A DNA stretch of 50,231 bases from positions 1 through 50,231 of the forward strand of contig BEIG01000010.1 in the NCBI GenBank assembly GCA_002898795.1, written 5' to 3'. Positions within the stretch are counted from its first letter, which is position 1. Each line of letters begins with the position of its first letter. Under the pieces are notes generated by a model. That model was given only the letters and a program-made list of their open reading frames with translations. It was not told the origin of the DNA and did not search any database. Made by a program: the position numbers and the translations under genes. Source of the DNA: a bacterium HR30. GTDB taxonomy: Bacteria > Desulfobacterota > Binatia > HRBIN30. This document shows positions 46,608-48,494 of the stretch, one piece after another.

Positions 46608-46975
46608 GACTAGGCGAGTAGCTTACGATCACACTACCTGAAAGCGAGAGCCACGGACGCGAATGGCCTGGCGGTAGAGTGCGTGGATGAAGCGCGGGAC
46701 CCGTGTTCCCGCAACCTCGTTGCCGGCTAGGGGCAGCCGTTGCGGCTCCATGGGTGAGAGTGCGGAGGCCAAGCTTCTGCGCTCGAATGAGAGGAGGGAC
46801 CTTTGCTGCGGCAGACCTCCCGTACGGCGGGGCCGCCGAACGTCGCGGTGGCGGAGAACCCGGCCCCATTCAATCATGCGCGGTTGGCACTGAACTGGCC
46901 AGACGCCCACTGTCGAACAAGGGCCCTCGTACACTTGCATTCACGAATGGAGCTAGGTAAAGGGACGGCCGCGAC

Positions 46976-47125
46976 ATAGGCCGAATCCCTGGAGACAGGG
47001 AGCGGGGGAACCAAGATTTTTGGGGTGAATCCCGAGGACGGATGCAATCCTGATCCGAGGGTAGGGTAACTCTTTGAACCCGAACCCGGCAGCTAACCTC
47101 GTAGGCCTTCAAGGAGAGGCGCCGA
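46976..47125 (+). ncRNA. ydaO/yuaA-type cyclic-di-AMP riboswitch aptamer
   Basis: Matches the recalled conserved blocks in order: ggccgaatccctggagacagggagcGGGGGAACCAagattttTGGGGTGAATcc ... GGGTAACTCTTTGAACCCGAACCCGGCAGCTAACCTCGTAGGCcttcaaGGAGAGg; lies 5' of a cell-wall peptidase gene. Confidence 0.93.
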
Positions 47126-47224
47126 CACCTGGTGACGGCCTCGGGGCCTTGCCAGAGCCGGCAGCAAGCCGTTGTGCGGTGGGACGTGGCCTCTCCCGGT
47201 ATGTCGCGGAAAGGAGAGGAGGAG
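47113..47224 (+). promoter_or_regulatory. Candidate expression platform: anti-SD element with two alternative partners
   Basis: gcctctcc (47189-47196) is perfectly complementary to ggagaggc at the aptamer 3' end (47113-47120) and its cctctcc part to ggagagg at the SD (47213-47219), just before ATG 47226. Confidence 0.65.
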
Positions 47225-47225
47225 T

Positions 47226-48494
47226 ATGGACCACGCGCAACGGAGGGTATGGCTTACGGTGCTCACGGCGACCACATGCGTGGCGCTTGTAAGCCCCGGG
47301 CTTGGCGCAACCAAACGTGCCCCGAACCGCGGCCCGGCAACGCAATCCTTGCGGGTCGAGCGGCACGTCGTCGCGAGTGGAGAAACCTTAACCTCGATCT
47401 TGGCGCAGCGGGGTTTGCAGACCAGCGAAATTTTGCGTTGGCATGAGGCAATGCAAGCAGCGGCTGGCGAGTTCGCGCTGAGTCCTGGCCATGTGCTCCG
47501 ATTGGAGTTTCAAGGGCAGGTGCTGACGCGGACGAGTTACGAGGTCGACGACTGCGTCCGGGTGAAGGTGGAACGCCGCGGCAAACGGTTACTCGGGAAA
47601 ACCGAACCATTGCAGGCGCGGGTGCGCATGGTGGCGCGAGAAGGCGTGGTAACCAAGTCTTTTTCCGCGGCCGCCCGGCAAGCTGGAATTCCCAACGCCA
47701 TCGTGTCGAAGATGGCGGACGTGTTGGGCTGGGAATTTGATTTTCGGCGCGTTCGAGCCGGCGACCGCTTTCGCGTTCTCTACGAAGAGCGGACGAGTGT
47801 CGATGGCCGACCCTTGTCTCCCGGCAAGTTGTTGGCCGCGGAAATCCGCAGTGGAAAGCGGGTGTACCAAGCCTTCTTTTACGATGACGGAGGCGAAGGC
47901 ACGTACGTGGACGGCAATGGTCGCACGCTCTCGAACGGTTTCTTGCGCTTTCCCGTGGAGTTTACCCGCATTACCTCGCACTTTTCGCGGCAACGCTTTC
48001 ATCCTGTGTTGCAGGTCGGTCGCCCGCACCATGGCGTAGATTTCGCGGCTCCAGCAGGCACCCCTGTGAGAGCGGCCGGAGACGGGGTGGTCGTGTCTGC
48101 CGGGTGGGAAGGCGATTACGGAAATCAAGTGGAGATTCGCCACGAGAATGGATGGTCCACCGTGTACGCCCATCTGAAGGGGTTTGCCCCCGGCATCAAG
48201 CCAGGGCGCGCTGTTCGCCAAGGTGAGGTGATTGGCTATGTCGGGCAGACTGGCCTCGCGACGGGCCCGCATCTGCACTTCGGTCTTTTTCGAAATGGGC
48301 AATACCAGAACCCCCTTACCGCCAAGGTGGAACTACGCCGCGAAGTGAGGGACCCGGTGCGGTTTGCGGAGGCAAAGCGAACTCTGCTGCGGCAAATTTC
48401 GGCGCTTGTACGGCCGGCGCCACCGGTGGCGGCAACGATGCTTGCAACCGGGCCCAGTACGCTGCGCCCGTCGATGGTCTCGCTGCAGCCCTAA
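47226..48494 (+). CDS. LysM-like plus M23 (LytM) peptidoglycan endopeptidase
   Basis: VERHVVASGETLTSILAQRGLQTSEIL LysM-like; HHGVDFAAPAGTPVRAAGDGVVVSAGWEGDYGNQVEIRHENGWSTVYAHLKGF...VGQTGLATGPHLHFGLFRNG (HxxxD / HxH). Confidence 0.94.
   Translation: MDHAQRRVWLTVLTATTCVALVSPGLGATKRAPNRGPATQSLRVERHVVASGETLTSILAQRGLQTSEILRWHEAMQAAAGEFALSPGHVLRLEFQGQVLTRTSYEVDDCVRVKVERRGKRLLGKTEPLQARVRMVAREGVVTKSFSAAARQAGIPNAIVSKMADVLGWEFDFRRVRAGDRFRVLYEERTSVDGRPLSPGKLLAAEIRSGKRVYQAFFYDDGGEGTYVDGNGRTLSNGFLRFPVEFTRITSHFSRQRFHPVLQVGRPHHGVDFAAPAGTPVRAAGDGVVVSAGWEGDYGNQVEIRHENGWSTVYAHLKGFAPGIKPGRAVRQGEVIGYVGQTGLATGPHLHFGLFRNGQYQNPLTAKVELRREVRDPVRFAEAKRTLLRQISALVRPAPPVAATMLATGPSTLRPSMVSLQP

Follow-up and report, generated by a model that had tools for sequence, protein, structure and literature searches.

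We have identified a helix, P0, in the leader of an M23 peptidase gene of an uncultured Binatota bacterium, formed between the sequence directly 5' of a c-di-AMP riboswitch aptamer and a segment close to the ribosome binding site, and its two strands covary across homologous leaders. Together with a conserved anti-Shine-Dalgarno (anti-SD) element that has two possible partners, the aptamer tail and the SD region, P0 leads us to favour, with some confidence, the reading that this leader acts as a c-di-AMP riboswitch turning off translation of a peptidoglycan hydrolase, in which P0 aids a choice made co-transcriptionally. The P0 helix is the new part of this proposal; the SD-exchange mechanism itself is plausible and precedented.

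Aptamer and regulated gene

The window, which is the whole stretch of 50,231 nucleotides that was analysed, is contig G000:C10 within a 3.7-Mb draft genome. The M23 protein encoded here has an 88% identical counterpart in the Candidatus Binatia MAG CALAMI010000011.1, that is, in the candidate phylum Binatota, and a search of genome contigs with this protein returned a single relative, the same as G076. The leader matched RF00379 at 46969-47123 (+) over the full model (1-134) with 98.8 bits in cmscan (gathering threshold 38; E 2.6e-22). The features of the leader are as follows.

46969-47123, + strand: c-di-AMP (ydaO/yuaA) riboswitch aptamer, RF00379 (cmscan; the span includes 10 nt of flank 5' of the model)
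46969-46978, + strand: P0 5' strand CCGCGACAUA, directly 5' of aptamer P1 (longest inverted repeat; covariation in 11 distinct homologs, 10 without L009)
46979-46982, + strand: aptamer P1 5' strand GGCC, pairing with 47104-47107 (Rfam alignment)
47067-47074, + strand: aptamer pseudoknot loop CUCUUUGA, with the tail UCAAGGAG (47109-47116) as partner (8-bp duplex)
47113-47120, + strand: aptamer tail GGAGAGGC, which would be held through its GGAG part in the pseudoknot if ligand-bound and would otherwise pair with the anti-SD (complementarity, homologs)
47169-47178, + strand: CCGUUGUGCG, which may pair with 47234-47243 in the first codons as an outer stem of the SD hairpin (full-leader MFE)
47189-47196, + strand: anti-SD GCCUCUCC (present in all 12 leaders from families f1 and f4)
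47200-47209, + strand: P0 3' strand UAUGUCGCGG, inside the anti-SD/SD loop (inverted repeat; covariation)
47213-47224, + strand: SD region GGAGAGGAGGAG, of which GGAGAGG (47213-47219) is complementary to the anti-SD (repeat search, homologs)
47226-48494, + strand: M23 peptidase of 422 aa with a Csd3_N2 domain and an N-terminal signal-peptide-like segment, the putative regulated gene (Pfam PF01551, 3.3e-35; PF19425, 2.5e-19)

The M23 peptidase gene beside the aptamer belongs to a known type of c-di-AMP regulon (cell wall, K+ or osmotic), and a second copy of the aptamer in the same genome (L002) lies upstream of an RlpA-like (DPBB_1) gene. The genome of the window encodes a diadenylate cyclase, as does each of the 15 genomes of the order; the riboswitch was found in 8 of these 15 and, across the class, in 15 of 148 genomes. 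The pseudoknot between loop and tail (CUCUUUGA:UCAAGGAG, 8 bp) is possible in nearly all loci of the class, with a longer variant carrying GCUC/GAGC in family f11; in the ydaO aptamer the ligand-bound form holds the tail strand in this pseudoknot, and the equivalent strands of the solved RNA are ACUCCUUCG and CGAAGGAG (PMC5393176).

An in-frame TTG at 47172 was ruled out as the start codon, as it has no SD while the ATG at 47226 opens a clear signal-peptide-like segment. Upstream of the aptamer, a TTGCAT at about 46935 is followed after 17 nt by a weak -10-like TAAAGG (46935-46968 region), and similar -35-like elements were seen upstream of homologous leaders. A consensus promoter scan did not call the TTGCAT/TAAAGG element; as a candidate promoter it would put the transcript start close to 46966-46969, and hence P0 at the 5' end of the RNA.

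Tail, anti-SD and SD elements are conserved

An element pairing mutually exclusively with the aptamer end and the SD was proposed in the original prediction, whose positions proved exact: GGAGAGGC at 47113-47120, GCCUCUCC at 47189-47196 and GGAGAGG at 47213-47219 before the ATG at 47226, with a 16-nt loop. Both alternative pairings of the anti-SD were recovered independently by an unbiased repeat search (I3 and I4). Chance often produces a perfect 8-nt inverted repeat somewhere in the 311-nt leader (48% of shuffles); when only the spacer between tail and SD was shuffled, GCCUCUCC arose in 0.2% and CCUCUCC in 0.5% of cases, and the duplex of tail and spacer in the window had a shuffle P of 0.003. 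The idea that the ligand-bound aptamer holds its GGAGAG applies to GGAG (47113-47116), which is common to the pseudoknot and the anti-SD helix, and not to the whole of GGAGAGGC. The 10-bp extension of the SD hairpin by 47169-47178:47234-47243 was also possible by eye in L007 and L017, with 9-10 of 10 pairs.

We compared 12 leaders (11 distinct sequences) of families f1 and f4 from eight genomes of the same order. They share one plan: the tail AAGGAGAGG is followed by a spacer that differs between leaders in length and sequence, then by CCUCUC(C/U) and a loop, and finally by a GGAG-type SD with the start codon. This tail:anti-SD arrangement precedes two unrelated gene types, M23 (L001, L007, L017 and L019, as well as L012 by aligning its N-terminal part) and RlpA-like (L002, L003, L005, L006, L008, L009 and L018). 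The best partner of the tail was the same CCUCUC element in every one of the 12 leaders (shuffle P 0.000-0.081 per locus), and the element matched the SD nearly always, so that the complementarity whose loss in homologs would have counted against the original prediction is preserved. Among the 11 distinct sequences, 100% of cells were paired for tail:anti-SD and 93.5% for anti-SD:SD, with no double changes in either. The covariation looked for in these two helices was thus not found, since they hardly vary and offer no compensatory change that could prove either of them; their signal is one of conservation, not covariation, and both purine strands (tail and SD) are constrained for other reasons. 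An anti-SD complementary to the SD and kept in homologs, as found here, is characteristic of a translational SD-sequestering platform. No intrinsic terminator-like site was found within 46850-47300, in agreement with the earlier claim, and with no intrinsic terminator downstream of the aptamer in this region the leader does not fit a transcription-terminating ydaO platform.

P0 covaries across homologous leaders

The pairing of 46969-46978 with 47200-47209 (I1, 10 of 10 positions) was overlooked in the original prediction, even though no perfect inverted repeat in the leader is longer. Taken alone it is borderline, as an inverted repeat of at least 10 occurred in 5.3% of shuffles of the leader. 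However, the two strands vary jointly, being CGCGACAUA/UAUGUCGCG in the window, CACGACAUA/UAUGUCGUG in L017, GUGACAUA/UAUGUCAC in L005 and GCGUCC/GGACGC in L009. In an alignment made by hand around the GUCGC core (A2; 11 distinct sequences, eight genomes), 85.2% of cells were paired and 6 of 8 pairs showed double changes, a level reached in 0 of 500 shuffles, which do not model relatedness; slid-partner controls gave 22-52% paired cells and double changes in 0-1 pairs. L009 was placed by hand, because a free MAFFT alignment moved it by two columns, and when it was left out double changes persisted in 5 of 8 pairs (2 of 500 shuffles). Cognate flank-loop duplexes also bound better than swapped ones (50 of 20000 permutations). 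By energy per locus compared with shuffles, P0 was not significant at most single loci, and the signal lies in the covariation across loci. In more distant leaders the outer pairs are often open and 6 bp are formed. Interpretation of P0 as a protein-bound DNA inverted repeat is less likely, as the arms covary with G-U pairs allowed and lie 221 nt apart. Among 28 loci in other classes of the phylum, mostly K+ transporter leaders as judged by eye, there was no consistent support for P0.

Folding of nascent and full-length leaders

In pseudoknot-free approximations, in which a pseudoknot of P0 and anti-SD:SD cannot be scored, window transcripts cut off at the start codon or after 12 nt of coding sequence (through codon 4) formed P0 and tail:anti-SD, with the SD unpaired at 0.98 and 0.85, respectively. 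With P0 blocked these values were 0.40 and 0.14, and with the tail blocked as the ligand would do they were 0.47 and 0.16. Nascent-length folding of L007 resembled that of the window, and that of L009 largely did so. SD exposure in L017 was independent of P0, and nascent snapshots of L002, L003, L008, L018, L005 and L006 gave no clean P0-dependent switch. For the window, these models suggest that the ON state requires P0.

When transcription has reached 24 nt into the gene, the dominant fold of the window leader under every condition is the SD hairpin with its extension 47169-47178:47234-47243. Full-leader equilibrium folding likewise favoured the OFF hairpin with or without ligand, and constrained full-length ensembles placed OFF about 7 kcal/mol below ON. 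Comparing tail-blocked with free equilibrium folding gave little information in most loci and speaks against a simple exchange in the window; a ligand-like dependence appeared, with these pseudoknot-free energies, only at nascent lengths and only in some loci. Since the OFF hairpin wins at equilibrium even without ligand, a simple thermodynamic exchange is unsupported and a co-transcriptional choice must be invoked; according to the models the switch, if real, is probably co-transcriptional and kinetic. The ligand-OFF model originally proposed therefore stands in its architecture, which is kept in 12 of 12 leaders, in the placement of the tail in the pseudoknot and in the lack of a terminator, but it missed P0, its equilibrium exchange is unsupported, and its helices lack compensatory changes.

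Proposed mechanism and alternatives

In the mechanism that we infer for the ligand response, its OFF direction, the role of P0 in the ON state and the timing, the tail GGAGAGGC would capture the anti-SD GCCUCUCC in the absence of ligand, and the first bases of the transcript, CCGCGACAUA, would pair with UAUGUCGCGG just 3' of the anti-SD to form P0. P0, P1 and tail:anti-SD would then join in a compact three-way junction, in which the anti-SD is kept away from the SD, so that the SD emerges free (ON). With c-di-AMP, the tail would be locked in the aptamer pseudoknot, making tail:anti-SD impossible, and the anti-SD would fold onto the SD in a hairpin extended by pairing to the first codons (OFF). 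The decision between ON and OFF would fall during transcription, since the polymerase completes P0 and the anti-SD ahead of the SD. Whether c-di-AMP riboswitches of Binatota more widely employ the very 5' terminus of the RNA as a covarying regulatory strand that closes a three-way junction with P1 and the tail:anti-SD helix, and so act as kinetic co-transcriptional translational switches, we consider evenly balanced.

Topologically, P0 nests with tail:anti-SD but forms a knot with anti-SD:SD. In an alternative that we regard as possible but doubtful, P0 would be a constitutive tether or a part of the OFF state. As such it would form an H-type pseudoknot with anti-SD:SD that stabilises SD sequestration, or it would hold the platform by the aptamer, and the competition between tail, anti-SD and SD would decide. 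The spacing in all leaders is compatible with this, with 2-6 nt between P0 and the anti-SD, 3-13 nt between P0 and the SD, and A-rich 3' linkers, and as about 10 bp correspond to one helical turn, linkers of 3 nt may suffice; moreover, some leaders (L002, L018 and L008) have no ON state in pseudoknot-free folding. On the other hand, tail:anti-SD is the only one of the two helices with which P0 is nested, and blocking P0 in the apo snapshots abolishes SD exposure in the window, L007 and L009, which speaks for the role in the ON state.

It is unlikely that the ligand acts on transcription, by termination (intrinsic, pausing or Rho), with SD pairing being secondary. Terminator-like hairpins do occur just 3' of the tail in leaders of the sister family f11 and of family f4, and ydaO of Bacillus subtilis is described in PMC9960051, with reference to Nelson 2013, as acting by termination, but the leader of the window has no terminator-like site and no U tract at the hairpin position, and its conserved element targets the SD. 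Less likely still, and already disfavoured, is a fortuitous anti-SD complementarity. The tail and the SD are both purine-rich and of GGAG type, so that any pyrimidine stretch would pair with both; both strands are constrained, and 8-nt inverted repeats are expected often. Nevertheless, CCUCUC(C/U) occurs at one place in all 12 leaders, the spacers of which are otherwise divergent, the per-locus shuffle values cited above are low, and the covarying P0 adjoins the element.

Relation to known riboswitches and to other families

The closest precedent is the nlpC riboswitch of Corynebacterium glutamicum (RSnlpC), where, according to PMC9960051, c-di-AMP lowers expression with an unchanged transcript level, and the authors suggest that a CUCC switches partners, from an upstream GGAG in the ligand-free RNA to the GGAG of the RBS once ligand is present. 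As in the window, a ydaO-type aptamer lies upstream of a cell-wall peptidase gene, control is reported as translational and the same exchange is envisaged; the core idea of the original prediction is therefore not new. In that same account the suggested pairing of RSnlpC comprises 4 nt, about 20 nt from the upstream partner and with no conservation analysis, whereas in the window it comprises 7-8 bp, is kept in 12 leaders and is joined by P0. The passages of PMC9960051 consulted make no mention, for RSnlpC, of a helix at the 5' end comparable to P0. The ydaO (kimA) riboswitch of B. subtilis shares the aptamer class, including the tail pseudoknot, and is an OFF switch upon ligand binding, but it controls transcription termination, whereas the leader of the window has no terminator. 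We found no description of P0, of Binatota riboswitches or of a P0-type expression platform for c-di-AMP riboswitches in the literature searched, outside which fall most subscription papers and the primary ydaO papers.

Family f11 (L004, L010, L011, L013, L014, L016, L020 and L021) comprises Binatia c-di-AMP riboswitches of the same bacterial class and with the same aptamer as the window, the identifiable next gene being mostly RlpA-like. Here too the tail is complementary to a downstream element; however, unlike in the window, the partner of the tail AAGGAGCGGGAUC is the 3' arm of a terminator-like hairpin, and the tail usually stands directly before an ATG, and neither an anti-SD element nor a P0 partner was found in these leaders. 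Since AAGGAGCGGGAUC lies directly 5' of the ATG (L004, L010, L011, L013, L014 and L020), the tail may itself be the SD. The terminator-like hairpin (GCCGGGGGAGCGAUCCCCCGGC and a U run) falls within the first codons of the RlpA-like frame. GACATA is kept 5' of the aptamer in f11 too (L010, L013, L014, L016, L020 and L021), at a variable distance from P1, and no TATGTC partner was found within 500 nt.

In family f4 (L005, L006 and L019) a terminator-like hairpin lies at +15 to +60 from the tail and the anti-SD/SD/P0 platform further 3', giving two platforms in series behind one aptamer. Inspection by eye of two K+ transporter-like leaders from other classes of the phylum (L025 and L030) points to a further tail-capture design: a CUCUCC some 30 nt 3' of the tail can pair with its GGAGAG, and the loop closed in this way contains AACCUUCCGG, a complement of the SD CCGGAGGUU. 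The platforms thus comprise a terminator-like hairpin right after the tail in f11 (checked in L010), a hairpin and an SD lid with P0 in f4, and an SD lid only in f1, which includes the window. This comparison, drawn up without a tree, suggests a shift from transcriptional to translational control.

In summary, the conserved elements and the covarying helix provide comparative support for translational c-di-AMP riboswitches, which in the literature searched had been argued from reporters in one organism. P0 is a specific part suggesting that sequence 5' of the aptamer can belong to the expression platform, and, in a phylum that has received little study, the leaders connect c-di-AMP with peptidoglycan hydrolases of the M23 and RlpA-like types. 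Finally, related families with terminator-only, terminator and SD-lid, and SD-lid-only leaders hint at how transcriptional control might have given way to translational control.
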